From contig OY744611.1 in assembly GCA_963556255.1 (NCBI GenBank), positions 6,834,736 to 6,898,735 on the forward strand: 64,000 nt of DNA, given 5' to 3'. Below the pieces are notes generated by a model. It ran no database searches, was not told where the DNA came from, and saw nothing but the letters and a program-made list of their open reading frames with translations. A program made the position numbers and the translations under genes. Position 1 is the stretch's first letter. Every line of letters starts with the position of its first letter. This DNA is from Allolobophora icterica (Eukaryota; Annelida; Clitellata; Crassiclitellata; Lumbricidae). Below are positions 1,440 to 54,262 of this stretch, in pieces.

Positions 1440-1846
1440 TTATAGTAAAAGCGATGTTATTAATTGAATTGAAAGCAAGTTCTTACCTTTGAAATATGTT
1501 TGTACCTTCTGAAACTCTTCAGTGAATACTGTCAGTTTAGCAATTACTATTTTTTTGTTTGATCCACCCCAAAACAAACTAGCACTGAGGCAAAAATTAA
1601 CGGAACCCTCGAATCGTTTTGTCACCAACTTGTTCATTTGTTCTATTTCTTCGCTGGTCTTGCAGTAGATGTAGAGAACGATGCTTTGGCCTCTCTTAGC
1701 ACCAATTAAATGTGCAACACCTCTAAGTATTCTACTTCTTTGATCACTTGACATGTCGATCAGAATGTTTACTAACATTGCTGTAATTTTATTTTCGTCC
1801 TCGTTGACGTTCCCTCCCAACAGATGAGCATGAAATCTCACAAGAA
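1440..1846 (-). CDS. Gene A terminal exon, TRADD-N-like domain
   Basis: Last coding exon of gene A. The acceptor is a TTTGTAG at 1847-1853 and the frame enters with two bases (phase 1). The stop is TAA at 1440-1442, and an AATAAA lies 48 bases further on. The 135 codons contain the segment IVLYIYCKTSEEIEQMNKLV and later an AKLTVFTEEFQKV stretch. This layout (beta strand, C-K-T-x-E-E-L/I, helix, acidic strand) resembles the TRADD N-terminal-like domain found in many invertebrate NLR and adaptor proteins, which mediates signalling contacts. The paralogous exon at 29617-30029 has the same phase, stop position and poly(A) signal, which argues for selection on a real exon. An AAAG/GTAAGA at 1481-1490 could act as an alternative donor. 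Family assignment is by pattern recognition only; it could be another death-fold-associated domain. Confidence 0.6.
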
Positions 1847-2937
1847 CTACAAATAACCAGAGATGTCTGAGCGTGAATTACAGGCTGATGATCTGTACAA
1901 ATTACATGAGAGCATGATGTTATCAATAAGTTCTGCCTAAATAGGTAACAAAATTTAATATTAATAGAAGGTAGGACTGTTGCAACTTATTGCCTTACAA
2001 ATGCTGGAGCGTCTCTGAGTAGTTTGTTTTTAAAGAGGCGATATGTCAATCAATCATTCAATATATTCATTGCAACCAACAGCAAATTCATAGTAATTTC
2101 ATAGAGGTAAATGTTATTGTCTGCAAAGGTGGCCCAAAAGGAATCAAGATCCAGCTTAAAAGAGGAGGGACACCTGGTTAGCTAAAGTCATAGTATAGTA
2201 GGGCAATTATTGATGACTGATAGTGCACCTCATGTCAGGGTAGATTGTTTAGGTTATAATTCAAATTATAACATTTGTGTTAGACCGAGATGAGGCTTAT
2301 CCTTAGTTGTGATTAACATTTTTAACTAAAAAAACGCATAGGACGTGTGCTTGCATATGCATCAATTTTATAGAATCGATGTAATAAGATATTAGAGTGC
2401 TTATGTCTTAATGAGGAAAGCCCATAGTCTAGTTTGAACTCGAGGAAATTTACGGAGTTACGGATTTCCCCTTTTCCATATCCCCTTTTCTATTATCAGG
2501 ACTCAATACTTAATCAGGTATATTAGTGCGGGCTTTGGCGGAGCGCTAAATAGTAGAATTCCTCTTATTTTGGGCGTGTATCTGCGATCACAGAGTGAAG
2601 TAACCACTAAATAACGGGGGAAGTAAATTTCGCTTGAAGCGATATTACAAGTCCCCTATCTGAGATATTTTTTATTTGTTTTTTTTCTTCAGTAAATTGA
2701 ATTCGGCAAAGATTGGGCTGGTCTGAGCATCTCTAGGACCCCTGGACTTACACGTATTTCGTATTGCAGTATTTCTAATTTATGGAGTCTAGTTTCGTAG
2801 TTTGACGCCCAGATTAGATCACAGTAACTTAAATAAGAAGAGACTGAAGACTATTTAAACTGTAGCCTGATGGTTTTACGGAGTAGACGGGAGATTCTAG
2901 TTATCATACCAATGTTTTTAACAACTCTTAACGAGAT
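1847..2937. other. Gene A intron, no feature recognised
   Basis: About 1.1 kb inside the intron between the CARD and TRADD-N exons. The first 170 bases match gene B; the rest shows no coding pattern, repeat array or element ends. Confidence 0.4.
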
Positions 2938-3274
2938 AGGGTGACCACACGTCCGGGATTGTCCGGGACAGTCCCGGAATTTGAAAAAATGTCCCGCGTC
3001 CCGGACACGTCCTTTCCGGGACAATGAATCGTCCCGGAATGAATTTTTCTATTATCACATACGCAGAATTTGCTATTTTAATTTTCCAATAATTAGTAAA
3101 AACAGAAAAAAACAACATCAGGAAATACGCAGCGCCGCACAAAACTTACAAGAGTAGGCCTATGGCTAACTATGGGTCTACATTCTGCAATAGAGGCTGA
3201 TATGGGCACCTGTAGGGGACCAATTCTAAAATGCAGGAACTGGCAATTTACCAAATCTTTTGACGATAGTCGCA

Positions 3275-3484
3275 TTCATCATGAGCATTACTGCTTCAAA
3301 TGCTGCATTCGGGTCCGATACAAGAAACAGATGTTTAACTGAGCTCATTAAAGCAGAACTTCAGCTGAAGATGAACTTCGATATGGATTGCCAAACTCTT
3401 CATATTAAATTTGTCAAAGGCAACAAAGAGTTCTTGCGTTGTGTAGGAAATGACAAAAAAATACGTTTCGACACTAGACTATAA
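3275..3484 (+). pseudogene. hAT transposase C-terminal remnant
   Basis: An open stretch reading FIMSITASNAAFGS then RNRCLTELIKAELQLKMNFD and CQTLHIKFVKGNKEFLR. 'I..SNA..(ER.FS)..RNR...ELIKA.L..K.NF...C' is the hAT C-terminal dimerisation region, but the expected 'ER.FS' core is missing. It sits near the left end of the element although its strand would predict the right end, suggesting rearrangement. Confidence 0.5.
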
Positions 3485-3767
3485 TGCTTAGATTACGTAT
3501 GTTTACCTTTCTGCTTATCACCAAGAGATGTCAATGTAGTCTCTGTCAAGTCTACTGAACATTTCATTTTTCATAAATCGTACTATGCCAAAAATAACAG
3601 TAATGTACAAAAATTGAGACCAATACCAGACACTTTATCAAGTCTTTACTATTTATGCTTGAATCTTTCTTAACTTCAAGCAATTTTGATATTAGAGTTT
3701 GAGCAATAGGCCTAAATTGACCAATTTGTGTTTTTTTGCTCGTTTTCTCTCGAATTAAATCAATTAG

Positions 3768-4775
3768 AATTTTTGTAATTGTAATTGTAACCGAAAACTT
3801 ATATAGCGCCACTCAAATCAGCGGCGCTTTCAACCCGCATCAATGCAGGCACCGGCAAAAAGGAAAGTTTTCAGGCGTCTACGGAACTGGAGAGGAGAGA
3901 GGGCAAGAAGCTCTTGGCGGAGAAACAAGGGGCGACAGTTCCAAGCAGAGGGGCCAACATAGGCGAAACTTCTGGATTGTGCCGTGGAAGATCGCATGCG
4001 AGGGACAACCATAAGGCCGCGAGCCGAAGATCGCAAGGAAGCCCTCGCAGGCAAGGAAGAAACTGGGTTGCAAAAATTCATTAGGTAAGGCAGTTGCGCA
4101 TGAGAGTGATGGTTTTAAACTGAATTCGCTGTTGAGCAGGGAGCCAGTGGAGGGAATCAAGGATAAGGGCAGAAATGTGGGCAAACTTAGGAATGTCACC
4201 TATAAGCCGAGCAGCAGCATTAAGGATAGTCTGGAGTTTGTGCATATTGGAGGAGGAAAGGCCAATGTACACAGCATTGCCAAAGTCTACCCTAGTGCAG
4301 ATCAGAGCATGGACCAGTGTAGTAACAGCATGAAATGAAGGAGACTTGCGGATGGATCGGAGCTGGCGTAGATGATAAAAGCAAGATCTGGATACAAGGT
4401 TAACTTGATCAGTAAAGGAGAGGGTAGGGTCAAGGACAATCCCCAAGTCACGAACAGAACAGGAGAATTGAATGAGGGGAAACCTAAGATGTAGAGATTC
4501 AAAATCAATCTTGCTGAGTTGGAGGCGACCACCGAGCCAGATAAACTGAGTCTTGTCGGGGTTCAGCCGCAAGCGATTAGAGGAAAGCCAAGAATCCAGA
4601 GCAGAGGCTGCTGCTAAGATGCGTTCGACCATTTGGACAGCAGAAGAGGCTGGACCATGAATTAGAGACTGGGTGTCATCAGCATACCGATGAGACGAAA
4701 CCCCATACTGCTGGAAAATACCCCAAGGTCCGAAGTATATAGGATATAGAATATAAGTATATAGGATATAGAATG
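3768..4775 (-). mobile_element. LINE family B (CR1/L2-like), truncated
   Basis: Minus-strand reverse transcriptase C-terminal part: LDSWLSSNRLRLNPDKTQFI, then FSCSVRDLGIVLD, LTQ-type helices, LNAAARLIGDIPKFAHIS and LHWLPAQQRIQFKTI. This is the standard thumb and post-RT pattern of CR1/L2-type LINEs. The 3' end carries the tail (TTACAAT)n near 3775-3795 and 'TATATAGCGCCACTCAAATC'. Inserted inside the hAT element; the 5' part with endonuclease and most RT is lost. Confidence 0.8.
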
Positions 4776-5109
4776 CTTCATTTTGGTCTAAATTCTTACA
4801 TTGTGTATGTCTAGCGCTGCTCTCAATGAGCCCAGCTCATAATTGAATTTGACTTATTATTATAATATTATAGCAGATATTTACATAAAGCCCAGTGCGT
4901 CTGATTTGAAAATAGTAGGTGGGTCGAAAATCGATCGCGCTGGATCGAGTTGGCGAGCGATGCGCGGTCGACCTCGTGAGCTTTTGTGTACAGCGTATTT
5001 TGTGTATCGTATTCGTAATTTTTTGTATAGCTGCATTGTGGAATCAAGAGGTCCTTCATTTACTGCAGAGCACAGTGTTTATCAACATGACTGCTTTGAG
5101 ACCGAGTAC

Positions 5110-5370
5110 ACGCCGGTATAAGCGTGTGCCCCATGGGTGAAGAAACTGAAGGACGGACGATCAACGGTATCGACGCAGAGAGATGGTGTCTCCCTATAAA
5201 AACACCAGGAGGAAGGCAACGGGAAACCACCTCCCTATCTCATCCCGAGTAAAATGAAAAATGACGACAATAAGCAGTTCAGTAGGGCTATCTCAATTCA
5301 TTTCCGTTATCTCAGTAGGTCTCTTGAAGAGGCGCTATATAAATTCTCAGAATTAATGAATGAATGAACA
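5110..5370 (+). repeat. LINE/SINE-type fragment with AATG tail
   Basis: Contains GGAAGGCAACGGGAAACCAC, also present at 51081-51102, and ends in GAGGCGCTATATAAAT followed by (AATG)n, a LINE-type 3' end. No coding frame. Confidence 0.4.
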
Positions 5371-5374
5371 TTCA

Positions 5375-5581
5375 CTAGAGACGTATTGACGTATGATGAC
5401 GTGTGACGGTTGATTTCACAACGTTGGTTGAGCCTTCGGCATACGTTGAACACTCATTTTTAGCTTGACCTTTCAGCCGGCAATCCAGTAGAATTTTATC
5501 GGCGTACTTTCTGCAGGACTTGCAGTAAAATTTGTTCACAGTCCGACGGTTCTCTATTTCGACTACACGACATCGAGCCAT
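5375..5581 (-). pseudogene. Small Cys-rich frame, possible transposase N-terminus
   Basis: 68 codons starting MARCRVVEIENRRTVNKFYC, with KFYCKSCRKYA and KSTVTRHHTS further on. C-x2-C followed by H-H spaced as in zinc fingers at transposase N-termini. No family was recognised with confidence. Confidence 0.25.
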
Positions 5582-6294
5582 AATTTACATGACAGATACG
5601 TGCTCAACTGTACATTACTATTCGACTTGGTCCCCTTCGCCGCCATTGTTGTTTAAAATTATTTCCTAAATTGGTGATGTTACGGATGATGTCACGCGGC
5701 GTGAGGGGTCGGCTGTGTTGTTATGACCAATCATAATACACGAAATTAGAGTGATTAGTCAGCTGTAGTTATTACAGATCACGGCACGCATTCACCGCTG
5801 CCGCAAGTAAGTAAATTAAAATAATCTCAATTAGGTAACTAAAATATTGGTCTGGCTCCAGGTTCGTCTATCGTTTTGGAGTCTAACTCAAACTCAACGA
5901 GCGACGAGCGACTGTCACCGACGGTGAGGAGCCTTCGGCTAGGCGACCGGTACCTTTGCTTGGCGAGCGACCAAGGAGAGCCATCGAGCGCTCACCTTAA
6001 ATCAAACGCTCTGATAAAGCCTATACAAATATACGCTCAGGAACGGCGTTCCGGCACCTTTTTCCAGTTTAAAAAAAAATTTAATTATTTTAAGAGAAGA
6101 ATAATCTAGTTGTTTTAATTTAATTGACGTCAAAAAATTCTTTGGAGGGTCTTACCGAAACCCCTCCGTAAACCCCAGCCCCGTTTTTTCGCCCTCAATT
6201 TAGCGCTTTCATAATTGTTCAGTTTTTCATATCTGTGGTGTCCCGGAATGGCAGAAAAAAAATGTGGTCACCCTATCGAGAGACGTAGTTGATA

Positions 6295-7265
<971 letters not shown>

Positions 7266-8254
7266 TCATTTAGACTGTATTATAGAGGACAAACGTATTA
7301 TGTCCAACTTTTGGACAAATCAATGTTAGTAGCTATTCTAATAGGCAATGGTATAAGGCTTCAGAGCACAGTTGTTTTATCTTCTGCTAAAGGCTTGTTT
7401 CTGGGATATTATACAAACTACAAATGTTGTATGTCCTCTTCTGACGAATCCACAGAGCACAAACGTATAGTGTAGTGGTATATGTAGTGATTAAATTCTA
7501 TGGCGCCAGATTATCATTGGAAGGCATGCACTCAATGACACGGCTAATTGGTACCACACAGACTGACAAACAGACGCACAGATTCCAGACCACGAAGGCG
7601 CCGATTAGTCTGAAGAGCGAACCCACTGACCAACTAACCAGATGCCACGTGTACAGGGATATACAGACAGACGAAGACGAATACGGACACAGACAGAGAG
7701 AGGGATGAACATACACAGCTACATGTATGCGAGTAGCCCAACCGACTGATTTGACAGTATAAATAGAGACCGAACTTAATGTAGAGAGAGTTATCACGAC
7801 TTATAGTAGAAGGTTGTCGTCGTAATTGTAAAACGTCTATAAACTCATGAACTGCTGCTGAGCGTCGTTTTATTCTTTCTTCGGGCAATCAGCCTGGGGC
7901 CGAGTTGGTAACCGAGCACGAGATGTGCTCCGCACGGTCGTCCTAGAGACGCGCCGACAACGTACAGACACGAGCACCAACTACCTTACGCTACATGCTG
8001 TCCCAATACAGTAGTATGTGGACATACATTTTGTGCTCGGAGAATTGCGGCCCACCAGTTATTATTTACGTTTATTCTATGCAAGATGGCGTCGAGCCAG
8101 TCAGCATCATGTAATTTTTACATCATGATCGGCATGCTTAGCGTTTGCGCTTTCATAATTTAATATTGTCATGCAACGTGTATGTTTGAGCGTTATGTTG
8201 ACTTTCATGTAATTTCTTCTTTTTCTTAGGGCTCGCTTTTGGAATAATATTCTT
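7266..8254. other. Intron, no clear feature
   Basis: Contains a CAGACAGACGAA-like low-complexity patch (7555-7700) and otherwise unremarkable DNA without coding pattern. Confidence 0.35.
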
Positions 8255-9545
8255 TTTTTGGTTCTTTTCAATCTTGTACCACTCCTTTAAGTCATCTCAT
8301 AAAATCCGCTCTGTCGACCACCATCTCTATGCAGATGACACCCAACTCTTCATATCCTTCTCCCCGGGCTCTTTTTCCACCGCCATCACACAACTACTCA
8401 ACGTGGTTAACCTTATTTCACAGTGGATGTCATCCAATCTCCTCTGCCTTAACGATTACAAAACTGAATTCATCATCCTAGGCCTTCCTGATCAATTCAA
8501 GAAAATCCCTGATCCTTCCATAAACCTTTCGACTAACTCATCGTCTCTCACCTTCACCTCTGACTCCTCTGTTCGCAATCTTGGTGTTATTTTTGATCCA
8601 CACCTCTACTTCTCTAACCACATCACCAACCTCTAGCGCTCCTGCTTCATGGACTATGTGACATTCGTGACCTCCAACGCATACGATCCATGCTCGACCT
8701 CAAAACTGCCTTCACCATTGCAACCTCCATTGTTCATTCAAAGCTTGATAACTGCAATTCTCTTTTCCTCAGCCTTGAATCCACTCAAATCAAGTGTCTA
8801 CAGTTTATCCAAAACTCACTAGCCAGAGCTGTCACTAGAACGCCCAAACATCGTCATATCACTCCCATCCTCAAATCACTCCATTGGTTAAAAATCCCAG
8901 AGCGAATCCACTACAAAGTCCTATCACTAACCTACAACTCCCTACAATATTCCCAGCCCAAGTACCTTCGTGATCTCTTCACCATTAAGACTACTCGCTT
9001 CAGCCGTTCACCGTCCTATCTCAGTCTTTCTCCACCTCAGTCACTACTCACCTCAAGTTCTCCAACCGAGCCATATCCATCACAGCACTACGCCTCTGAA
9101 ATGATCTCCCTCCCCCTGAATTCCGCAGTTTCTCAGCTTCTCCATCATCATTGCAACCCGTCCTTCATCCTCATCCTCATGTTCCTCTATCTATCAACCC
9201 CCCTGGCTATCCACTCAAAACTGAAGTCTCACCTCTTCAAATACTCCAACCCTGACTCATCTGAACCTCTGCTTTCCAATTATTCTCGCCGTAAACGATA
9301 CCCGCCTTGACAGCCGCTCTGCCTCTCCTGATCTGGTACCTTGGAAATCGGACTTGGACCTGTTTTGGACTACTCTCTGGAAACCCCTCTGATTTGGTTT
9401 GGCCTTCTGGAAACCGAACTTCTACCTCTTTTGGATTATTCTCTGGAACCTCCTCTGATCTGACGGAGCGCTCGTGAATAGGCTGGTTCCCTGCGCTTGG
9501 CCTTCGAGTGGCGCTTTAGAAGTTTGGAGATTACGATTGTCATAT
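8255..9545 (+). mobile_element. LINE family A (CR1/L2-like), 5'-truncated
   Basis: Begins within RT: HHLYADDTQLFISFSPGS (catalytic YADD), ISQWMSSNLLCLNDYKTEF, then SSVRNLGVIFDPHL; after a frameshift, LDLKTAFTIATSIVHSKLDN and LHWLKIPERIHYKVLSL. The 3' UTR ends GTGGCGCTTTAGAAGTTTGG and AGATTACGATTGT. A stop after 8636 and a later frame change mean it is dead. Copies or fragments of this family occur at 715, 11800, 14963, 20840, 27832, 39405, 47428 and 54425. Confidence 0.82.
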
Positions 9546-10616
9546 TAAGGAGTGCACACTAAATAACAGTCATGGTTGCTGAAATATTTAAAGATAAGAT
9601 CAGTCGCGGTTATCGGGTGTTGACCACATCACTTGCAAAAACATCATCAGCAATGGCGTGCCCTACTCTCGCCGACGGTCTCAATCTCGGACTCAATTTC
9701 GGACAGTGTGAATACTACAATGTAAACTTAAGTAAAGCATAATATTGACGATACTATATCATTATTGTCGTTCAGGTAATTCCGTTTTAGAAAAACAGCG
9801 AGTAACACTGACTGAGATAGTCGCTCAAAATTCCTTATTCGGCAATTATTTTACGAGATGGTATGTCGTTAGATTTATCAGAGGCTTAACACGATGGCGG
9901 ATTGGTTGGATGCTTGCAAGTTTATGTTCGAGCTTTTCCAGAATACTTAATGTTTAGCTGTGTGGGGGCCGTTACATCCCGTAAGTAAACGTTAGCGCAT
10001 AGTTTGCTTAATACCATCGATGAGTATTTTCTCATCTTTATCATTCTGATCTCTCTGTTGTTTTGTCCCAAAATGAGAAGAATTTATTGATGCTCTATTA
10101 TCTAAATTACTAGTATTGTTTGCATTATTAAAACAGGATTCGTACAAGTACAGACTGTGGTTGTAAAACAATACACAAAAGAAGGAAAACAGCACAGCAG
10201 CATAACACTGGTATAAATATTTAGGCAGAGAAAGGACAGGAAGCATAATGCAATAGCCACGTTTCTATAATCGCAAAACAATACTTATTGTCTGATTTGA
10301 ACATACACTGAGTTGCGGAAATACCCAATATATGGGATTCCTGAGCCAGATGCATCTGAAAGAACTGCTGAGGAATAGTAGACTTTCTTCCTAACATTCA
10401 CCAATGCAAGACTTTTTGCCAGAGAATCAACAGTTTTATTACCATTGACTGTGCATTTGTTTATTTGTTTAACATCTGTCTTTTAGTTGAAATCCGTTTG
10501 AAGTAACTCATGAGGAATATTAGAATAATGAACAGAGCAGAATATACATTTGATAAATCAGTTATATAATTATAGTACAAACAGGAGGAGCCCGAGGTTT
10601 GAGCCTTGGGGGCATA
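9546..10616. other. Intron, nothing recognised
   Basis: Non-coding DNA with no element ends, tandem repeat or coding pattern that could be supported. Confidence 0.3.
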
Positions 10617-11492
10617 GTGCGACCGTACGTTACCTACCGGAATAACGTACGCGTACTGTACGTACGTCATCGAAAAAAATAACGAACGCGTACCGTACGC
10701 GCACGTTAAAAATGCCACAAATTTATCTGATCATTCACAAAGAACCTCAATATAACTATAGTCTTATACGGTACGCGTACCGTACGCGTACGTCAAAAAT
10801 GATCAGCTTAGCTCAGGGGTGGGCAAACTTTTTGCACACTGGGCCACATTAGGCGCCAAAAAAATTCGGAGGGCCGGGTAACAAATTTGTAATTTTTAAT
10901 AACGACTAACATGAAATGAAGTTATTATATTAAATATACTTTGGCTGCTACTAGTGAGATGTATGCAACTGTGAGCATGAATTTACAAGTTTACCACAAT
11001 CCGGAGTGATTGCACAGTTGCACTGGCTGCAATTCGCAGTTTGAGTTCAAGTTTAGATCAGTCAAATTAAGTCTGTACTTGGATTTGTTTATCTTCATAG
11101 TTGACAATCTTTGTTCAGAAAAATGTAATTTGATGCGAATAACACAAACATTTTTAAAGCAGAAGTTTGTAGATTTGAGAATTTTTCCATTCTGAATGAA
11201 GAAAAGAATGTTATCAGGTCTGATCATTTGAGCAGGATTTTGAGAACAATGTCACATTGTGGGTCGGTTATCTCCAGCTGAAGTTCCGTAAGAACTAATT
11301 GTCGTGTCAAATGTGGACGGTATAGTATTATTATTACTATTATTAAATATTATTAATTAAATTTGTAACGCACGCATGGTCACACCGAAATGTGAATCTG
11401 AGGCGCGGATAGCCAGGAGACGGTGCAGTTAGTGTTTGAAAGCCAAGGAGAAATAGTGAGTTTTGAGCCTCTTTTTGAAGGTTGAAAGTGAA

Positions 11493-11702
11493 TTATATAG
11501 TAAGCAAAGCAAATTCAGTCTCAATCGATTTTAAATCCGCAAAGCATCCGGAGAACTCTTCTTTCAAATTTGACAGCTGAAGACTATTTTTCTGTAGACT
11601 CTGCTGTGACAGTTTGCAATGGAGGTGTATACGAAAGTTTCCGTAGTTTTGTTCTTTCATCTGCTTTGAAAGCAACATTAGCCTTACTTGAAAAGATTTC
11701 AC
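11493..11702 (-). pseudogene. hAT transposase fragment (ZBED5/GTF2IRD2-like)
   Basis: Minus-strand frame with FQVRLMLLSKQMKEQNYGNF, LQLSNLKEEFSGCFADLKS and IETEFALLTI. 'L..F...L..GN..HF' followed by 'F..RF.DF..IE.EF.L...PF' is the middle segment of hAT transposases related to ZBED5, SCAND3 and GTF2IRD2. No catalytic region is left. Confidence 0.6.
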
Positions 11703-11799
11703 TTCTGCGAACAGATCATGTGCAGAAAACTTCTGGGGAGAAAGCGTGACATATCGGCAGAGTTAATACATAGAGTTATCTTAAAAACGATACCTGAAT

Positions 11800-12020
11800 A
11801 GTAAGTAATCGCAAATGCAATCTCGCAATTTCTACAGCGCCCGTAAAAGTCGCGGGAACCAGCTTATTCACAGGCGCTCAATAAAATCACAATCTGTAGG
11901 CGGGGTTGTGGGTGAAATCGGTTCCAGATCAATATCCAAGGGGGTCAATCAGGCAGACAGTCAGACGGCTAAAGAGGGTGGTGAGAAAGAGAACAGCGCC
12001 ACGTAAGTAACACGAAGAAA
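11800..12020 (-). repeat. LINE family A 3' fragment inside hAT
   Basis: Starts AGTAAGTAATCGCAAATGC..CTACAGCGCCCGTAAAAGTC and ACCAGCTTATTCACAGGCGC, the family A 3' end. It interrupts the hAT element at 10814-12136. Confidence 0.45.
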
Positions 12021-13100: not shown

Positions 13101-13294
13101 TTGAGACCGATTTTCATGTTAGGCCCAGAAAGTTTAGGTGAGGGCTTGCATACACTCGTCGAAAGAGCAGGAAGGATCTTAAACTGTGCTAGCCAATTTG
13201 CAAGCCATATTAGTAAAGTATCTAACTATTTGCTATTTTCTTTTTCGAGCTGTATGAAATTACTGCGTTCAGAAACTTGGCATTTTTATCCTAA

Positions 13295-14447: not shown

Positions 14448-14753
14448 CTCCACCTTTGATGAGTATTTCTGCAATCTCGCTTTGTTGCGACTCGCGAATG
14501 CAGGTGATTGTCCGTCGGTAGTCACGAAAACTGCGTCTTCGCAACATTTCCAGCAGTGCCTCATTCTTCTCGTGCGAAGTTGGCTTTGAAGAAATTGAAT
14601 CCATTTGCCTTCTGTTAATAACTTTCGTGGAATACAGACGATCAAGTAGACGGTACAATTCCAGAAGATCAACCAAACTTTCTTGATTGGTGTCTAGTAT
14701 CGAAATTTCCTTTGCCGTTAAAGGCCAATCTCCGCGATACTCATCTGAATATA
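14448..14753 (-). CDS. Gene A exon, second CARD-like domain
   Basis: A 306-base exon (102 codons, phase 1 at both ends) bounded by TTGTTTTAG and a GTAGGA donor. It opens YSDEYRGDWPL and runs through LLDRLYSTKVINRRQMDSI, then LLEMLRRRSFRDYRRTI and CIRESQQSEIAEIL. The hydrophobic spacing, the 'VI..RQMD.I' turn and the final 'C.RES.Q..IA.IL' helix are typical of CARD death-fold domains, which assemble signalling complexes by homotypic contacts. About three quarters of residues match the paralogous exon at 36494-36799 by eye, with no indel. Symmetric phase makes it suitable for exon shuffling. A DED is the main alternative within the death-fold superfamily. Confidence 0.72.
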
Positions 14754-31176: not shown

Positions 31177-32640
31177 CCAGCGCGCGAAAACCCCCCCCCT
31201 CCGGGAGTTCATCGTAGGCCACCAGGTCGCATCGACCAAGTCCCCGGCGGGCATCAGTGCCCCAGGGACAAGCAAAAGGCTAGAGGTTCCTGCTAGAATT
31301 GCGCGCCTCAGACGCTACCCCCCTCCTTGAGTCCGTCAAGTACTAGGCCGCATCGGCCATGTCTTCGGTGGAGGCATCAGTGCTTCAGGGACAAGCAAAA
31401 GGCTATAGGCCCCTGCTGGGATTGCGCGCCTCAGACGCTACCCCCCCTCCTTGAGTCCGTCAAAGCACTAGGCCACATCGGCCAAGTCTTCGGCTAGGCA
31501 TCAGTGCCTCAGGGACAAGCTAAAGAGCGTCGAGGTCCCCCCTTAAAGTCATCGAAGGGACTAGGCCACATCGGCCAAGTCTTCGGCTAGGCATCAGTGC
31601 CTCAGGGACAAGCTAAAGAGCGTCGAGGTCCCCCCTTAAAGTCATCGAAGGGACTAGGCCGCATCGGCCAAGCCTTCGGCTAGGCATCAGTGCCTCAGGG
31701 ACAAGCGAAAGAGCGTCGAGGTCCCCCCTTAAAGTCATCGAAGGGACTAGGCCACATCGGCCAAGTCTTCGGCTAGGCATCAGTGCCTCAGGGACAAGCT
31801 AAAGAGCGTCGAGGTCCCCCCTTAAAGTCATCGAAGGGACTAGGCCACATCGGCCAAGTCTTCGGCTAGGCATCAGTGCCTCAGGGACAAGCTAAAGAGC
31901 GTCGAGGTCCCCCCTTAAAGTCATCGAAGGGACTAGGCCACATCGGCCATGTCTTCGGCTAGGCATCAGTGCCTCAGGGACAAGCTAAAGAGCGTCGAGG
32001 TCCCCCCTTAAAGTCATCGAAGGGACTAGGCCGCATCGGCCAAGCCTTCGGCTAGGCATCAGTGCCTCAGGGACAAGCAAAAGGCTAGAGGTCCCTGCTG
32101 GAATGCGCGCCTCAGACGCTACCCCCCTCCTTGAGTCCGTCAAAGCACTAGGCCACATCGGCCAAGTCTTCGGCTGGGGATCAGTGCCTCAGGGACAAGC
32201 AAAAGGCTATAGGTCCCTGCTAGGATGCGCGCCTCATTCTTACCCCCCCTCCTTGAGTCCGTCAAAGCACTAGGCCACATCGGCCAAGTCTTCGGCTGGG
32301 GATCAGTGCCTCAGGGACAAGCAAAAGGCTATAGGTCCCTGCTAGGATGCGCGCCTCAGTCGCTACCCCCCCCTCCTTGAGTCCGTCAAAGCACTAGGCC
32401 GCATCGGCCATGTCTTCGGCTGGGCATCAGTGCCCCAGGGAGAAGCGAAAGGCTATAGGCCCCTGCTGGGATTGCGCGCCTCAGACGCTACCCCCCCTCC
32501 TTGAGTCCGTCAAAGCACTAGGCCACATCGGCCAAGTCTTCGGCTGGGCATCAGTGCCCCAGGGAGAAGCGAAAGGGCGTCGAGGTCCCCCTTTCCCTTG
32601 AATTAGTTGAATTAAATTTTCACTGTATCAGGGTCAGCGA
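31177..32640. repeat. 93/124-bp composite satellite
   Basis: A shared core (ACTAGGCCACATCGGCCAAG, TCTTCGGCTAGGCATCAGTG, CCTCAGGGACAAGC) repeats with two spacings. GGCC anchors at 31471, 31564, 31657, 31750, 31843, 31936 and 32029 are exactly 93 apart. Those at 31217, 31345, 31471 and from 32029 on (32151, 32273, 32397, 32521) are 122-128 apart. The short form has a GAGCGTCGAGGTCCCCCCTT spacer; the long form has a GCGCGCCTCAGACGCTACCC spacer. Non-coding. Confidence 0.92.
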
Positions 32641-36493: not shown

Positions 36494-36799
36494 CTCCACC
36501 GTTGTTGAGTATTTCTACAATGTGGCTTTGTTTCGACTCACGAAGGCATGTGACTGTCTGTCGGTAGTCACGTAAACTGCGTCTTCGCAATATTTCCAAC
36601 AGTGTCTTGTTGCTCTCGTGCGAAGTTGGTTTTGAAGAAATTGAATCCATTTGCCTTCTGTTAATAACATTCGAGGAATACAGACGAATAAGTAGATCGG
36701 TCAATTTCAAAAGGTAAATCAAACTTTCTTGATTGGTGTCTAGTATTGAAAATTCCTTTGCCGATAAAGGCCAATCTCCGCGATACTCATCTGAATATT
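36494..36799 (-). CDS. Gene B exon, second CARD-like domain
   Basis: A 306-base exon, phase 1 at both ends, between TTGTTTTAG and GTAGGA; same length and splice sites as 14448-14753. It contains YSDEYRGDWPL, LLIRLYSSNVINRRQMDSIS and LLEILRRRSLRDYRQTV, ending CLRESKQSHIVEIL. CARD-type helix spacing is kept. Most differences from gene A fall in one surface stretch around 'YLLKLTDLLIRLY', while the RRQMDSISSKPTSHE core is unchanged. Confidence 0.72.
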
Positions 36800-38320: not shown

Positions 38321-38321
38321 A

Positions 38322-39404: not shown

Positions 39405-40305
39405 AAGGAGCTGTGAAGGAGGGAGTCGTTTAGGACGAGAAGAACTGGAAGGCAGAGGATCAGATGAGTCAGACTAGGAGTACTTGAAAAGGTGAGACTT
39501 CAGTTTGGAGCGGAAAGCCCGGGAATCGATAGAGGAACATGAGGGCGGTTTGGAATGATGATGGAGGAACCGAGAATCTACGGAAATGAAGAGGTAGATC
39601 GTTCTAGACGCGTGGTGCTCTGTTGGACATGGCTCGGTTGAAAACTTGAGATGAGTAGTGGCCGGGGGTCGAGAAGTACTGAGATAGGAGGATGATCGGG
39701 TGGAGCGCGTTGCCTGGGTGATAAAGAGATCACGGAGGTACTTGGGATGGGAATATTGTAGTGATTTGTAGGTTATTGATAGGTCTTTCAAGTGGATTCG
39801 CTCTGGGATTTTTAGCCAATTGAGTGATTTGAGGATGGGAGTGATATGATGATGTTTGGGCGTTCTAGTGACAGCTCTGGCTAGTAAGTTTAGGATAAGT
39901 TGCAGACACTTGATTTGGGTGGAATAACGGTTGAGGAACAGGGAATTGCCTTAATCAACTTTGAATGAACTATGGAGGTATCAATAGTAGACAGTTTAAG
40001 GTCGATCATGGGCTTGATGTGGCGAAGGTCACGAATGTTCACGAAGCAAGAGCCCGAGAGTTCGGAGATGTGTTTAGAGAAGGAGAAGTGTGGTTCAAAT
40101 GTACTACAAAGATTGCGGACGGGGAGTCCAAGGTTAAGGTAAGAGACGATGAATTAGTCAATAGGTGTATGAAAGGGTTAGAGCCTTTCTTGATATGATC
40201 AGGAAGGCCTAAGATGATGAATTCAGTTTCGGAAGCGTTAAGGCAGAGGAGTTTGGATGATATCCACTGTGAGGTTAGGTTAACTACGTTGAAATATGGC
40301 ATCAC
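39405..40305 (-). mobile_element. LINE family A fragment
   Basis: Minus-strand pieces LSITYKSLQYSHPKYLRDLF then ITQATRSTRSSSYLS, and VVNLTSQWISSKLLCLNASE then TEFIILGLPDHIKKG. Same family as 8255-9545, with several frameshifts. Confidence 0.75.
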
Positions 40306-42880: not shown

Positions 42881-42883
42881 TAC

Positions 42884-44805: not shown

Positions 44806-44819
44806 CCCTCCAGGTATCC

Positions 44820-45697
<878 letters not shown>

Positions 45698-46577
45698 TAA
45701 ACCCATCCCTCTTCAAGAGCAAGCATTCGTCGCCTGGCTGTCTCTTGATCTAAGCGCCGTCCACATCTGACGAAGGTCGTTACTCAAAGGACCCGTGTCA
45801 TTCCTTTTCCGTTGAGACATTGCCGCACATAAAAAATACCAACTCTAATTATAGGGTTACGTACGCCAAAACGACATACGAAATAAATATCGTCAGAATG
45901 TTCACATTTTGCGGCAGAAACGAAAACTCAAACTTAGCAACAGTATACTCCACAACTTCAGAATTTAGAGAAAATAATCCTCCGAAATGAAAGAGAGAAC
46001 GAAAAAACGATGGAAATGGCCAATGACATTTGTAGAACCTATCAAAAGATATGCATGTGAAATTCATACAGGCTAAAATTTAAACAATATTTAGCATAAA
46101 ATGGATAATATCAGAGATCTTAAATGGACTTAGAATATATACACTGTACAGCTGGTTTTCAATTATTGAACTCCGTGTATGGGATTAGATGGTAAACTAA
46201 CTTGACTAAAATTGAACAAATTTGGTCTACACTAGTCTTGATAAAGATAAATATCTGCTGATTATACGAACATTATATCACGTGTTTCGCTTCCAAAGAA
46301 ATACTTCCTGCTTTAGAAGCTTTCGCGTTCTCTTGGCTTCAATTGTCGAGAAATGGGATCAAGATACACCAAAATTGGTCTTGTGAGGGTTACGGTTCAA
46401 TGGATCTGGTTTAGGTAAGCACAGTCTAAATATGATATATCTGCAAAATGCAGTTTTTTATGTTGGCATTGTGATTGTGAGATTTCAAAATTAGATCATA
46501 GAAGAGTTCAAATATAGATAAATAAAACTCGATTGAATCGAGTTGCTGAAAGTCAGACCAGAATCTTGTTCGCTTAC

Positions 46578-46583
46578 CTGCAT
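46578..46583 (-). other. Possible mini first exon of gene B (ATGCAG)
   Basis: On the minus strand, GATGCAG/GTAAGCGAAC contains an ATG-CAG directly before a donor that is conserved in gene A (19455-19460, where ATG reads TTG). It ends in phase 0, so splicing to the CARD exon would give Met-Gln-His-Arg. That would be an alternative start lacking the kinase. Speculative. Confidence 0.2.
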
Positions 46584-46668
46584 CTATTTCAACTCTAACT
46601 CATTTGAAAGCCATGGGTACTAAATGTTGCACTCTCAAATTTGCAAATGTTGACCGTCCTCTCAATCA

Positions 46669-46724
46669 TTCTCTCTCTCTCTTTCTCTCTCTCTCTCTTT
46701 CTCTTTCTCTCTCTCTTCTCTCTT

Positions 46725-46768
<44 letters not shown>
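46669..46768. repeat. (CT)n microsatellite
   Basis: About 100 bases of CT with TTT interruptions; gene A has a much shorter tract at the same place (near 19610). Confidence 0.9.
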
Positions 46769-46771
<3 letters not shown>

Positions 46772-47187
46772 TTTTCCCTGAATTCCAATCAATGCTTAAT
46801 TCTTGTTTTCTTCCCTATCTGAATTTGTAATAATGGTCCACTTCACTATTCACGAAGATATTCAGAACAATTCTTTAAAACTTCTGATCTCATTTTAACC
46901 CGGTCAAACTGTTCTGCTGATGGAAATTTCTCTCTTTCTGCTTCACAACTAAATTCAGTTCTCTGTGAAATAGCTTACTGCATAAACTCATTCATACTAA
47001 GTTTAAGAGAGCCGTGGCATGCTCTTCCTAGACCGGGTGCCATAAGATACTGCAGTTACTATGCGGCTGAGCAGCCCTCTGGAAATCCATAGGCAATGGT
47101 CCCTTTACCTTTTCATCTCATATCATAAAATGTAGCAAATGTTTTCTTATTGTCCGTTAACTTGTCTAAGCAGCTAAATCAACTTAC

Positions 47188-47243
47188 TCGTTTCATTTGG
47201 TCTTTGATTGTTCTTACTGCCTTTGAAGAAGTGATCTTCTTTT
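47188..47243 (-). CDS. Gene B short basic linker exon
   Basis: 56 bases, ATTACAG acceptor and GTAAGT donor, phase 1 to phase 0, encoding KKITSSKAVRTIKDQMKR. In phase it joins the kinase exon at 50654-50722 (split codon C/AA, Gln) to the first CARD exon. That gives an unbroken 'LLDLKKNQ-KKITSS' junction at the end of the kinase lobe. Confidence 0.6.
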
Positions 47244-47427
47244 CTGTAATGTAACAAAATCAAATAAGGTAACTACTTTCCATTCAAAGAACGTTAAAGG
47301 TACTGACAGCCATACGATGTCAAACAATGGATATTTAAACTGGCATTTCTCAAATTTTTACACAGAAAACTTGAGTTTAATCTAAGTTTCTCAAACTCTT
47401 AAATTACTGTGTTCACAAACCAACCTA

Positions 47428-47690
47428 CAATTGTAATCGTAATCGTAATCTCCAAACTTCTAAGGGGCACCAACCTATTCACGAGCGCTTCGTCAAATCA
47501 GAGGGTGTTTCCAGAGAGAATCAAAAAGAAGTCCGAGTCCAGTTTTGCAGAAGGCCAAATGAAATCAGAGGGGGTTCTCCAAAGAGTAGTCCAAAACAGA
47601 TCCAAGTCCAGTTTCAAGAGAAGAGGCAGAGCAGCTGTCAAGGCAGGTGTCGTTTTAGACGAGAATAATTGGAAGGCGGAGTAAACGAAC
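47428..47690 (-). repeat. LINE family A 3' fragment
   Basis: ATTGTAATCGTAATCGTAAT, CTCCAAACTTCTAAGGGGCA and CACGAGCGCTTCGTCAAATC; matches 54425-54785. It marks the upstream limit of detectable homology with gene A. Confidence 0.65.
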
Positions 47691-48147
47691 CATGAAAATA
47701 AAAAAGAAAATGTGCATTCATATCAACTGCTGATAGTTTTATCTCTGGAACATTGGTGAAGTTACGAAGAGTTCTATGTTTTAGGTAAGGAAATTATGTC
47801 TCATAACGCGTGGAAAAGAATCTTTTGCTGGTAACGAAAACACTGTCTTCATTAGAATCTGATGACCTGTTGTAATAAAGAACGTTTTGACCTAATGCGA
47901 TAATCGCGCTTAAAACGACGTACCTTCCATGTCACAGACTAATTGTGCAATATAGACAGCAATAATACATCAAATATAATATATTTCATGTATTATTGTT
48001 GTCTAAATTGCACACTTATTAGAAAAAAACAAAAAATGGTGTTTCTAATAAACAAGGTGATATAATTATAAAACTGCGCAGTATGCATTGTTTTATTAAC
48101 CATCTATCCTAGACGCAGTTACTTATTAGTAAACTGATATCCTATCA

Positions 48148-48838
48148 TAAGGGCGACTTCGAAAGGGCGACCATCAAAAGAGCGCATTCAAAGAAGCGCC
48201 GCTCATAAAGGCGCATTATTTCAAAGGGCGCTGATCAAAAGAACGGGCAATCACAAGAGCGAGCTATTAAAAAGGCAAACAATATGTTTAAGTTCTGTTC
48301 TTAAATGTTAGTCCTACGTAATTTCGTTGATATTTCCATAGTTACTAGTCCTGTATTTAGAGATAATAATAACAATAAACTTCTTCAGCAACTTATTTTT
48401 TATGAACTTCAACCAAAATCAGTTTAGTTATAGAATTTATATAATCTACTGTGAAATGTTGTATTCTATAAGAACAACACTGTAAGTGTTTCATTTAAAA
48501 CTTTCATTTATATACAGTGAAATATCGTCCGACCAGTGTAAATATATACCATAGACGAGGTAAACTACTGTCTATCATTATGAAAGGATTGTTTCTGAAC
48601 ATGAAAAGATCAATTGTCATAAAAATGTTATACAACATTTCGTATGTGCGAATTGTTCTTTGGCTTCAAACTTTTAGTGGGTTCTAAAGTTTGTGTTTTA
48701 AAGTCTATGCTTCTTCCAAAATGCGAACTTTCTCGCCTTTTCGATTGTCGCCCTTTTAGTAGCGCGCTCTTTTGATCAGCGCCCTTTTAAACATGCGCCT
48801 TTATGAGCGGCGTCTTTTTGATTGCGCCCTTTTGATGG
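48148..48838. mobile_element. Fold-back element 2, CAAAAGGGCGC-type arms
   Basis: The left arm (48148-48285) is an array of 'NNNCAAAAGGGCGC' units. The right arm (48720-48838) is its inverted copy, with long matches such as GCCGCTCATAAAGGCGCAT and GGGCGCTGATCAAAAGA. The 430-bp interior has no coding pattern. Confidence 0.7.
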
Positions 48839-48839
48839 T

Positions 48840-49560
48840 AGATTGTCTCAATAAGCGAATATACAAATAATGTACATGTATCAATAAATCAGGACATGAA
48901 CGAAGTAATGAATGCCTGAATTTATGGATGAATGAATAATTCACTGAATGAATGAATGCTTTAATCAATGAGTCGGTTTGTCAAGCAACAGTCAGTTTGG
49001 TAGAATGTACACACCGATGCAATAGGCCTAATCCTGGGACACCTTAGAAGAATTAATAAATCAAGTAATTAATTTGAGTCACTAAACCGATAAACATTGT
49101 ATTAATTAGCTTAATGTTTTGTTTAATCGATTTTAAACTGCAGAAAAGTAATTTATATGTCATATATTGATACTGTGTTACGCCTATGCAATCAAGCTTC
49201 ATGAATATCAAACTGGTACCCGCTGATTCGATTCGAGATTCGATTTGAATTCGAACCTTTACCTCGATTCGATTCGAGATTCGATTCGACTGAAAATTTG
49301 TGATTCGGAGGTCCCTACTTCATGGTCAAGCCCGTAGATATCAATACACAAATCCGAAGATTTACAGAAGAAAATTGTTTTTCCTCAACTTAAATCTGTT
49401 GAAAATGTTTTCAACATTGGCTTTCCTGTCCAAAATCGGGGTCTGCTTCGCGAACTGTCATTGGTTGGCGTCCTTGGTCGTTATAACAGCCGATCGGCCA
49501 TAGCTGATGACATGATATCTTAACAACGTTAATCGACGTTTCTCTCCTTTAACTTAACTT
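48840..49560. other. Low-complexity non-coding stretch
   Basis: (AATGAATG) patches near 48900-48960 and a GATTCGATTCGA minisatellite at 49218-49300; nothing else recognised. Confidence 0.4.
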
Positions 49561-49589
49561 TCATTTCTATAGCGCTACTCAATCTAGTT

Positions 49590-50095
49590 CAACGCCACGG
49601 GTCCATCCCAGATCGCCTACTTGGTTGGCATAGTGTCGATACAAGGTGGGACTATCTCCCTACGGGCCGTCATCAACTCTCCCAGATGGGGATCATCCAT
49701 AACCAAGCATCCTTCGAGAATGGCGGACTGTCACTGGAGTACGAGGGTTGACGCAGCTGAAGCCATAATATTATAGGCCGAAGAAGCCAGCGACCCAACC
49801 CTCCTCATACCAAGACCGCCAAATCTGATAGGCAGTGTAGCCTGTAACCACAGGATGTTATCAAGTGTTATATTAACGATAGCTTCCAGGACTCCTCGCA
49901 TGATGTTATCAAGCCGCTCCAGACGACCTTAATAATATGAGGGCGCTTTGAGAGGACAGACGGTGAGATGCTTGATGGTATCACTAAGCAGCCTGCAATG
50001 TTCCACAAGAGCGGCATCCAGTGCCTGACCTTTGAACAACGGGGCAAAAGCGATTGAATCGCGGTCGATAGGTTGGAAATCCGAACAGGCCAACC
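49590..50095 (-). repeat. LINE fragment (post-RT region)
   Basis: The minus strand shows LPIRFGGLG-like remnants ('LSDLAVLV*GGLGRWLL' in one frame), a conserved stretch after the RT domain in some LINEs. Heavily frameshifted. Confidence 0.35.
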
Positions 50096-50274
<179 letters not shown>

Positions 50275-50398
50275 TGTATCGCCCGAGGTACGAAAATCCC
50301 TCAGGCTCTAAGAAACTATAAAAAGAAGTGTATTTAAGCTTGGAGCACGCCGTTCTCGTCTCCGGGGTGTGGTGTTATTATTGTTATTATTATTATTA

Positions 50399-50430
<32 letters not shown>

Positions 50431-50653
50431 GGCGATGTAGAGTACTGAAAACTGAACAATTCATTTAAGACTAAAAGAATCATTGATTTTCCACCTTGCT
50501 CAAATTGCAAAATACAAAATCCGATCAGGGCTTATGCTAAGGTTCTTAAAGAGTCGATATATCGTAAGGATTAAAAAGAACAACCTTCCGATTTTACTGA
50601 AGGATCATACAAAACGAAATTGCAAAGAAAGTACTTGGAAAGCATAGTCTTAC

Positions 50654-50722
50654 GATTCTTCTTAAGGTCAAGTAGTATTTCATCAAATGACGGACGTTGG
50701 CCTTCGTCGTTACTCAGACTTC
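50654..50722 (-). CDS. Gene B exon, end of protein kinase domain
   Basis: A 69-base exon between TTTCAG and GTAAGA, phase 1 at both ends. The 22 codons read SLSNDEGQRPSF then DEILLDLKKN. 'RPSF.EIL..L' is kinase subdomain XI, with the invariant Arg that anchors the C-lobe. The usual 'CW..dP..RP' is changed, lacking the Cys-Trp, as in some RIPK-like or diverged kinases. It follows in phase from the exon at 54114-54262. Confidence 0.68.
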
Positions 50723-50859
50723 CTGAAATGAATCAATAAAATGCTTTAGCGAAATGAAACGATTCAAATCCAGTTTAATGCACTGTCAAGTATAATATTG
50801 AATATTGCCTCTGCTGACGACGTACAAGCATCCGTCCACACTCCTCCTCAGCCGGTCAT

Positions 50860-51850
50860 ATTCGGGTACTCTAATAATAACCCCCTAAGTCCGTCTCACA
50901 CCTCGCCGTGGTGGGGGGGAGTAACAGCCGAGTAGGGGATTGCCTGCTGAGGCTATGCCATCAGTGGTGAAGGTTTCTGAAGTACCACCTTGGGCGCTAC
51001 GCGAGGTGGAAAGGCTCAGCAGGAACCCTGAAAGAGCTGGCTAACGTGAGCGACGTAGAAGGTCACTACTCAAACCGCGAGGAAGGCAACGGGAAACCAC
51101 TTCGGCGATTTCCCACGACATGATATGGACAAATCAAGTGCAACCCTAACTGACGTATAAAGAAAAAAAGTGGATAGGATGAGGATAATGATTGATGGAC
51201 AACTGGTGGAGCAGGTTAACCAGTTCAAATACCTGGAAAGTGTAATATCAGAGGATGTATATTGCAAAACAGATATTAAGAGCAGGATAGCTCAAGGTAA
51301 GTGTGCTTTTATGGGAAAGAGAGGGATACTAACTGGAAATATGAATCTAGAACTGAAGATAAGGATGATAAAATGCTTGATCTGGACGGTCGCAACATAT
51401 GCAGCTGAGTGCTGGACAATGACGGGGGCGGATAGGAAGAGATTAGAGGCTATTGAAATGTGGACTTGGAGACGAATGCTGAAAATAAGCTGAAGAGACA
51501 AAGTCACAAATCAGGCAGTCTTGGATAGGGCAGGGGTGCAGAGAGAACTACTACAATCAATAGGCAGCAGAAAGCATCGGTGGCTGGGTCACACACTTAG
51601 GGGAGAGGGTATGCTGGTGATGCTGCTGGAGGGGCGTATGGAAGGGAAGACAACGAGAGGCAGAAGAAGATTGAATATGTTGCGTGATCTCGATAACGGT
51701 GATTCATACGGACACACCAAGAGGAAGGCGCAGGACAGAACAGGATGGAGGTGGTCGGGGGGAGAACAAGAGGTCATCCATGTCACAAACCTGCTCAACA
51801 GCAGAAGACTGAGAAGAAGAATAATTTACATGCATGGATGTCTTCCAATC
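50860..51850 (+). mobile_element. LINE J (RTE/R4-like C-terminal part)
   Basis: The 5' part includes GGAAGGCAACGGGAAACCAC (shared with 5193). From 51170 the frame gives EQVNQFKYLESVISEDVYCK, LIWTVATYAAECWTMT and LEAIEMWTWRRMLKIS, then HRWLGHTLRGEGML. 'FKYLGS.I..D..C', 'YG.E.WT' and 'E.W.WRRML..S' mark the C-terminal part of RTE- or R4-type LINEs. One stop (51492) and the missing RT palm make it inactive. Confidence 0.7.
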
Positions 51851-52668
51851 GCCTTGCTCTCCCAATTCTAAAAAATCTGGTTTGGTTCTCCTCAGCAACT
51901 CCAGAAACTTGACTTCCCGCTCCTTGCTGAAAACTTCTCCCAGTTTACGTTTTCTACCAGTGTGCGTGACCTATGTGTTACACTGGACAATACTCTCACC
52001 ATTTCTGAACATGTTAAAACATCACACGCTCTTCTAATTTTCAACTTCGGCGCATCAAGACTATTCGCAAATCCGTTTCCTTATCTACCTTGACCCTTAT
52101 AGTGCGCCCATTTGTCTGTTCTAGAATCGACTATTGCATTTCAATTCTTATTTGTTTTCCTAAGGTCCGCCTGTCTCCACTCCAGTCAGTTCTCAATGCT
52201 GCCCCAGACACATTGCTCTTCTTCATAAATTTTCCCATTTCTTTTCGTTTTTAGTCACTCAACTTCACTGGCTCCCTCTCCTAGCCCGCAGTCAATTTAA
52301 AGTTCTTGTTCTCGTCCATAAGTCCAAAGTAGGTAGGCCTATTACTCCCAAATATCTCATGGTCCTCATTTACCTCCTCTTCCTGCAGATTCTCACCGAC
52401 CGAACTCTCCGCTCTCGCGACCTGTTTGTTCCGCGTGCCAGAAGAGCTCTAGCTCAAATTAGATCTTTTGCCAACATAGGGTCCACCCTGTGGAATGCCC
52501 TTCCTTCCCCTCTACAGTTAACCTTACTTTCTGGATCTCTTCCTAAACCCCTTTCCGTGCTTAAAACCCTTTTCTTCACTCGGGCCTTCGCATTTGGAGC
52601 ACTACTGAATGGCCTCAGCTGTGAGCGGCATTATACAAATATCCAAATACGATACGATCGATACATTG
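51840..52668 (+). repeat. LINE family E fragment
   Basis: Frames with DLFVPRARRALAQIRSFANI then GSTLWNALPSPLQLT, and 'SSNRLALPILKKSGLVLL'-type remains upstream. It ends with ATACGATACGATCGATAC, the family tail. Confidence 0.65.
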
Positions 52669-52923
52669 CGATAATGCCGCGACACAGGCTTGGCATTATT
52701 CTAAATCGTTCATTGCTTTGGCAACATTAACCTAAATGTAAAGCAAACGATCTTCGTGGAAAACGTTATGATCCGAGAATTTTGAACTTCATCGCCCTCT
52801 CTAAGACAGTCTTACGATTTCTACCATTAATCCCATCAGGTTCTAATTGCGGAAAACATGCTCCATGTATCCAGACAGCTGTAACAGTGCATGCTGTTCG
52901 TGCTTAGACTACGAGCGGTACGT

Positions 52924-53576
52924 GACGTTTTGGCGCCGCCGTTTTGGCGCGACCTTTTTTGGCGCAGCCGTTTTGGCGCAGGACGTTTTGACGCAGAAAT
53001 ATAAACGTGGTACATAACAGTAGGCAAGAAATGTTTACTCATTTTTATTGCATATGTAAACAACGTATAAACCCAGTATATCAAAGCTTAAAAGAAATGT
53101 TCAAAGCTGATACCTGTTCAAAACCACTAATGCGTTACCTTTTGGAAAGTTGAACAGTTCATTGGCTCCTCAGGAGTCCATCAAAAAATTATGCGCTATT
53201 CCTCTAAGGTACTCGATGATGTTACGTTGCCTGTAACTGTCAACGATTGTCCTGATCCTGACATCAGCTGCGACGTATTTTCTGCGTTTTACAGGAGGTT
53301 CAGACGTCCCAGGTAAAAGTCCTCAAACCAGTCGAGGATTGGCGTGAGGTCCACCGTTATTTCATTAGTCAAAGCAACATCTAGGCCGTCGATTGGACAA
53401 AGGAGAGCGCGACTATCAAGTATAATGTCCTGCGCCAAAACGTCCTGCGCCAAAACGGCCGTGCGCCAAACGTCCTGCGTCAAAACGGCCGTGCGCCAAA
53501 ACGTCCTGCGCAAAAACGGCTGCGCAAAAACGGCGGCGCCAAAACGGCGGCGCCAAAAGGTCCTGCTTCGGACTTC
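52924..53576. mobile_element. Fold-back element 3, MULE-derived
   Basis: Arms are inverted arrays of CGTTTTGGCGC units: left 52924-53001, right 53428-53576 as GCGCCAAAACG. The interior (minus strand) keeps VDLTPILDWFEDFYLGR and then KRRKYVAADVRIRTIVDSYR plus NIIEYLRGIAHNF. This matches the end of FLYWCH-type MULE transposases ('DYFE..YIGR', 'RD.L.YLRGIAHN'). It lies in the gene B intron between the two kinase exons. Confidence 0.7.
53289..53450 (-). pseudogene. MULE transposase C-terminal remnant
   Basis: ILDSRALLCPIDGLDVALTN and VDLTPILDWFEDFYLGR. The frame then shifts, and 53160-53285 continues with the 'RRKY...DLRI.TLV..Y..R...YLRGIAHN' tail. Only the last part of the protein is present, between the inverted arms. 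Confidence 0.6.
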
Positions 53577-53589
53577 GAGCATATTCACG

Positions 53590-53780
53590 GTTAAATATAT
53601 ATGTACAGTCTTAATCCATCGTCCACAATATGGGCCGTATAACGCTGACCAGCAAATACGTAACCCGAAAATCCTGTCAACCCCATATTCACTATAAGCC
53701 CTTGCCCCGTGATTCATTGAAGAAAATTCACAGGTTTTTGTCAGCCAGGCTTCTGTAATTTCTGTCATCTTATCGTACAG
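53590..53780 (-). other. Unassigned open stretch in gene B kinase intron
   Basis: Minus strand: DKMTEITEAWLTKTC and YSEYGVDRIFGLRICWSALY. No family recognised. It lies between the two kinase exons and could be an unrecognised or alternative exon, or an old transposon piece. Confidence 0.2.
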
Positions 53781-54113
53781 GAAAACCAGTGAAATTAACT
53801 AACTGTTTGGGATTACTCCATAAGTTGATTAAAAGTGAGTTCTAATTATAATCCTTTTTGGTAGAACATTAGCTCCTAGTAAAGCAAGAATCACTTTTTA
53901 AAAATAGTGCTACAGCTTAGGCCTATATAACACTATAGCCACAGTGGCTGCAAAAGTGCATACACCACCGATCTACCATTACGCCACAAGGTTTACTTTT
54001 TGTTCTACTTTGTTTGTGACGCAAATGAGGCTGTTTAACTTTTAGTGTTTGGGCCAAACTCACCTACCTAACATACATGTATGGCTAAATAAATGTCAAA
54101 GTCAAAGACGTAC

Positions 54114-54262
54114 TGTGCAGGATAGACTTGATGATGTCTGGACATGAATCCGGAATTACCAATATCAGCTGTCCTTGTAGTGCGTCAGCAATTATTATTT
54201 GATCGGGAACGTTTTTGTGGGGAATATTTCTTGTTAAGATCTCCCACAGAACCACACCGTAG
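54114..54262 (-). CDS. Gene B exon, protein kinase subdomains IX-X
   Basis: A 149-base exon after CTAAACAG, entered in phase 2 and left in phase 1 at GTACGT. It encodes YGVVLWEILTRNIPHKN, then PDQIIIADALQGQL and SCPDIIKSILH. '(S)YGVVLWEILT...P' is the subdomain IX signature of tyrosine-kinase-like and RIPK-type kinases. The catalytic HRD and DFG exons must lie further upstream and are not recognised before the window ends. An unassigned open stretch (53600-53770) lies in the following intron. A kinase joined to CARDs is known in RIPK2. Confidence 0.7.

Follow-up and report, generated by a model that had tools for sequence, protein, structure and literature searches.

We asked what kind of protein is encoded by the repeated death-fold exons in a 64,000-nucleotide stretch of the annelid Allolobophora icterica (contig OY744611.1, positions 6,834,736 to 6,898,735 of the forward strand; hereafter the window). 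The first-pass annotation of this DNA had described two tandem paralogous exon sets, each a linker, two CARD exons and a terminal exon with a TRADD-N-like domain, and had read them as a possibly undescribed family of adaptors. We give a probability of roughly 0.55 to a different reading, namely that the family in its fullest form encodes a MAP3K-like kinase with two CARDs and then a likely TRADD-N-like domain behind it, which would make it a one-piece signalling node of innate immunity; copy 2 in the window would be a kinase-headed gene of this form.

The coordinates, lengths and borders of the exons of both copies were re-derived, and the earlier coordinates were correct. The exons are as follows:

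20165-20110, minus strand: copy 1 linker exon, 56 bases, phase 1 to 0, with an in-frame ATG near its 3' end
17792-17555, minus strand: copy 1 first CARD exon (CARD1), 238 bases, phase 0 to 1; PF00619 23.0 bits, just below the cut-off of 23.9
14753-14448, minus strand: copy 1 second CARD exon (CARD2), 306 bases, phase 1 to 1; PF00619 40.7 bits
1846-1440, minus strand: copy 1 terminal (tail) exon with likely TRADD-N-like domain and stop, 407 bases, phase 1 to stop; strongly diverged
47243-47188, minus strand: copy 2 linker exon, 56 bases, phase 1 to 0, with an in-frame ATG near its 3' end
43121-42884, minus strand: copy 2 CARD1 exon, 238 bases, phase 0 to 1; PF00619 24.1 bits (cut-off 23.9)
36799-36494, minus strand: copy 2 CARD2 exon, 306 bases, phase 1 to 1; PF00619 33.4 bits
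30029-29617, minus strand: copy 2 tail exon with likely TRADD-N-like domain and stop, 413 bases, phase 1 to stop

The two sets thus agree in order, in strand, in phases and in the lengths of the first three exons, as had been claimed, and their splice borders are intact (AG at 8/8 acceptors, GT at 6/6 donors). Neither set has an internal stop in the translation of its joined exons. At the protein level the copies are 89% identical in the linker, 76% in CARD1, 77% in CARD2 and 40% in the terminal exon, and blastn placed the duplication at the DNA level, where tracts 70-89% identical link ∼1.3-20.4 kb to 29.5-47.4 kb without a change of order or orientation. The presence of two CARDs was borne out by a Pfam profile search, in which both CARD2 exons and the CARD1 of copy 2 passed the gathering score of PF00619, the CARD1 of copy 1 falling just short of it.

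The arrangement is more than chance because its order and strand recur across the genome. In genome-wide searches at most 150 candidates were scored for each exon type (of 170 tail, 618 CARD2, 345 CARD1 and 640 kinase candidates), so the counts below are lower bounds, and they include the window's own two copies. The tail exon gave at least 129 matching rows at E ≤ 0.1, from which removal of 28 rows weaker than 1e-3 and of 2 second fragments left a set of 99 at E ≤ 1e-3; for CARD2 and for CARD1 all scored candidates matched (150/150 each). For 94 of the 99 tail exons a CARD2 exon lay no more than 15 kb upstream on that strand (downstream for 3, on the other strand for 0), CARD1 lay upstream of 129/150 CARD2 exons and downstream of 16, and both CARDs were upstream of 89/99 tail exons. 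A stop fell within the match in 13/99 tails. These sequence matches make both exon sets members of a large gene family in the Allolobophora icterica genome, whose many further copies the first-pass annotation had missed. Splice borders vary somewhat among the paralogues. In 13/14 tails outside copy 1 the acceptor of the tail exon reads AG, two bases ahead of the frame (the L033 match stops short); the CARD2 acceptor lies 11 bases ahead of the same codon in L030, L032, L033 and L034; GC donors occur after CARD1 in L033 and after CARD2 in L034; and the CARD1 acceptor is absent at its usual place in L034 and was not seen in L032.

Is the protein a plain adaptor? The range of the first-pass annotation ended at position 54262, where a kinase exon that it did not mention begins, and further kinase exons accompany this one upstream of copy 2:

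54262-54114, minus strand: exon for the kinase C-lobe, 149 bases (SYGVVLWEIL...), phase 2 to 1; probably belongs to the copy 2 gene
50722-50654, minus strand: exon for kinase subdomain XI, 69 bases (RPSFDEILLDL), phase 1 to 1; the same exon occurs in the C7 paralogue
L009:482-662, minus strand, outside the window: kinase activation-loop exon
L010, ∼5 kb from its low end, outside the window: kinase N-lobe/catalytic-loop exon

Alone, the C-lobe exon scored below the PF07714 cut-off (E = 5.7e-4, 19.7 bits; cut-off 23.1), and the kinase pieces of the window gene set side by side, with a frame-changed stretch left out, reached 4.6e-36. Paralogous loci have the C-lobe exon at the same upstream position. 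The subdomain XI exon has no stop, and its donor matches the linker acceptor in phase, so that one gene running kinase-linker-CARD-CARD-tail is the simplest reading, and the copy 2 gene very likely starts with the kinase, judging from its exons. At the C7 locus the linker and subdomain XI exons recur between the kinase and CARD1, the linker there having no GT donor at the homologous place. Across the genome, kinase pieces lay within 60 kb upstream of 19/150 CARD1 exons (downstream of 1, on the other strand at 1), in N-to-C order at all 19 of these loci; 17 of the 19 CARD1 exons belong to the 34 closest to those of the window, and at least 12 loci hold kinase, both CARDs and tail together. Since a kinase in phase with the linker stands upstream of copy 2, the family in its fullest form probably encodes a kinase rather than an adaptor alone. 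Kinase hits of this kind also cluster at C9:55.8-57.0 Mb, with no CARD1 nearby among the matches listed.

The exons could nevertheless belong to a MAP3K-like kinase gene and to separate CARD-CARD-TRADD-N-like adaptor genes, which tend to duplicate together and are not spliced together. Several observations weigh on this side and against a kinase-headed gene. For 131/150 CARD1 exons, none of the kinase matches listed falls in the 60 kb upstream, and for 21/41 catalytic-loop hits none of the CARD1 matches listed falls in the 60 kb downstream. Of two public proteins, P0028 (381 amino acids, from a contig of 1,647 bases; 45% identity across 66% of the query) is a CARD-CARD-tail protein in one frame with its own start, and neither it nor P0027 (168 amino acids, 901-base contig) contains the kinase. 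The in-frame ATG near the 3' end of the linker could likewise start a CARD-only protein. On the other hand, the subdomain XI donor fits the linker, order and strand are constant in 19/19 loci, and at C7 both connecting exons recur in between; we regard separate genes as unlikely. P0027 and P0028 also bear on the lower half of the gene, as both cross the CARD-tail junction without an intron, CARD2 in P0027 continuing directly into the tail at the predicted junction; we infer that they represent spliced transcripts. For the kinase-headed gene, exon order, phases and splice sites are read directly in the sequence; a single transcript from kinase to tail, and the way its protein would work, are inferred.

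What kind of kinase would head the protein? For the kinase domain of an intact paralogue, the nearest solved structures were MLK1, MLK4, DLK and ZAK, and no RIPK was found among them (both in the best 60 of 1944 rows). In the six genes compared, the catalytic lysine is kept in 6/6 and HRD in 5/6, whereas DFD replaces DFG in 6/6; kinase activity of family members is thus plausible from these residues. The intron after the activation-loop exon has a GC donor (TGGAG/GCGAGT) in all six, including the one at L009:482 on the minus strand.

We then turn to the tail. The terminal domain is likely TRADD-N-like by its predicted fold, to which TRADD-N (β-α-β-β-α-β, as in 1F3V and 1F2H) is closest; for a model of one family member's tail, 1F3V was the best solved match. 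The TRADD-N sequence profiles (PF09034, PF13820) gave 0 matches to the tail, the model being silent in 14/14 controls as well; a profile comparison with 14 tail members listed neither of the two families, and the tail profile against the single human TRADD sequence reached a probability of 0.4. Because the sequence profiles tried did not reach TRADD-N, this assignment rests on the predicted fold; its placement by profile, the check that the annotation itself had proposed, did not succeed. The available text of PMC8195603 describes in TRADD-N an adjacent tiny residue and Ser at the β2-β3 turn. The tail family instead has a near-invariant G-x-S there, kept in copy 1 and lost in copy 2. That the terminal exon encodes an unrelated ferredoxin-like or RRM-like domain, and not a TRADD-N relative, would agree with the silent profiles, and the predicted fold is closest to TRADD-N; we consider such an unrelated domain rather improbable.

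Next we asked whether the window locus itself is in working order. In the copy 2 N-lobe exon there is a net 26-base difference from a C9 paralogue, the frame shifts between the N-lobe and the catalytic loop, and a catalytic-loop stretch is duplicated, whereas the frame-changed stretch is open in five other loci; the copy 2 kinase gene is therefore probably no longer intact in this exon. Copy 1 is a duplicated CARD-CARD-tail cassette for which no kinase exon of its own was detected. A second CARD1-CARD2-tail cassette for which no own kinase was found lies at C9:41.97-41.99 Mb, downstream of a kinase-headed locus, and carries two stops in its tail. Between copies 1 and 2 the ratio of nonsynonymous to synonymous substitution (dN/dS) was 0.25 for CARD1, 1.03 for CARD2 and 0.93 for the tail, and in five comparisons with near relatives the copy 1 tail gave 0.79-1.6. 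Copy 2 against the C5 and C11 paralogues gave 0.35-0.70, and two C11 paralogues compared with each other gave 0.25 for CARD2, 0.35 for the tail and 0.78 for CARD1.

The changed kinase frame and the little-constrained copy 1 tail mean that the locus may be decaying. In its strong form this explanation holds that the window has an orphan tail cassette (copy 1) and a broken N-lobe exon (copy 2) and makes no working protein, the working family lying elsewhere in the genome. The failure to detect a kinase exon for copy 1, the CARD2 ratio of about 1 between copies and the stops in the C9 cassette fit it as well. However, all eight CARD, linker and tail exons and both kinase exons within the window are open with intact splice sites, CARD1 and copy 2 show the low ratios given above, and a dN/dS near 1 equally fits diversifying selection in an immune family. 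We hold decay to be a serious contender at somewhat below even odds; from these ratios the locus, copy 1 above all, would either be relaxed or decaying, or have diversifying exons. The copies also look as if they had undergone exon exchange or gene conversion, as the synonymous distance between them is low in CARD2 (14448-14753 and 36494-36799; 0.13, versus 0.52 for CARD1 and 0.51 for the tail) and the exon in which a copy resembles C9:42.1M is not the same in the two.

The two CARD-CARD-tail cassettes follow one another behind just one set of kinase exons, the last of which offers a phase that suits either linker. This makes alternative splicing of tails possible: one kinase head could be spliced onto either cassette or, if the first stop exon is skipped, onto four CARDs. 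We consider this very doubtful. If true, tail choice and exon exchange between tails would diversify the sensor or partner to which the kinase answers.

How could a kinase-headed protein with two CARDs and such a tail work? By analogy with what is known of CARD and TRADD biology, an upstream CARD-bearing sensor would probably seed an assembly through the tandem CARDs, which would be the assembly interface; clustering would bring the N-terminal kinases together for mutual activation and so feed stress kinases (MAPK) or NF-κB. The tail may be a docking domain for a further partner; TRADD docks TRAF2. Members without the kinase could act as adaptors, competitors or decoys in the same assemblies. 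In vertebrates the receptor adaptor TRADD, a kinase and partners with a CARD or Death domain are distinct proteins brought together in a complex. In this family, parts of these kinds appear to share a single gene that has multiplied within one genome, an architecture that would couple the sensing of infection directly to stress and cell-death signalling. It offers a direct route to ask how antibody-less animals diversify the signalling that follows pathogen sensing, and what steps in TNF-receptor/NOD wiring are optional.

Finally, we compared the family with known systems. The closest kinases among solved structures, MLK1/MAP3K9, DLK/MAP3K12 and ZAK/MAP3K20 (best 60 of 1944 rows), carry SH3, leucine-zipper or SAM parts and not CARDs, and they differ from the family in that DFD replaces DFG in the latter. 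RIPK2 has an N-terminal kinase and a C-terminal CARD, a combination that is predicted for the fullest form of the family as well; the present family has two CARDs and a tail, and its nearest solved kinases are of the MLK, DLK and ZAK type. In the available text of PMC11507063, a RIP kinase survey, RIPK2 is reported only in Chordata among ten deuterostomes. Vertebrate TRADD resembles the family in the predicted TRADD-N-type fold on a death-fold protein (the 1F3V match) but carries its TRADD-N domain N-terminally and a Death domain C-terminally (PMC8195603, in the part available), while the tail here is C-terminal, stands with CARDs and a kinase, and has no sequence-level match to TRADD. As far as the accessible parts of Kaur et al. 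2021 (PMC8195603) go, marine animals have large lineage-specific expansions in which TRADD-N is coupled to death-fold domains, with varied effector domains, and S/T/Y kinases are among the TRADD-N partners in the sponge Amphimedon. The suggestion of an undescribed family was therefore over-stated, as large invertebrate death-fold/TRADD-N expansions are in print there. The NCOA6 and DEDD2 clade expansions of that source are alike in having many copies in one genome and, as is likely here, in pairing a death fold with TRADD-N, but their TRADD-N usually follows a DED, often with a variable C-terminus after it, whereas the A. icterica family has two CARDs before a terminal, likely TRADD-N-like domain and, in its predicted fullest form, an N-terminal kinase. 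No kinase-CARD-CARD-TRADD-N protein was found in a full-text literature search of partial coverage that included PMC8195603. We rate the family as a CARD-based, kinase-headed branch of the TRADD-N expansions, an addition to a group whose members, in the parts of PMC8195603 available, usually use DED.

Other elements lie in and around these genes. A dispersed repeat (8264-9462, 39406-40292 and 54576-55762; copies up to 90.6% identical) is present within introns of both exon sets and adjoining a kinase exon, and a tandem array with units of 93 and 122 bases (31230-32576) occupies the intron preceding the copy 2 terminal exon. Open frames at 61748-63602 on the minus strand resemble, by eye, those at L057:3446-7390 (MPVDKF..., repeated YADxKD-like stretches); both seem to be genes from a large element that is mobile or virus-like.
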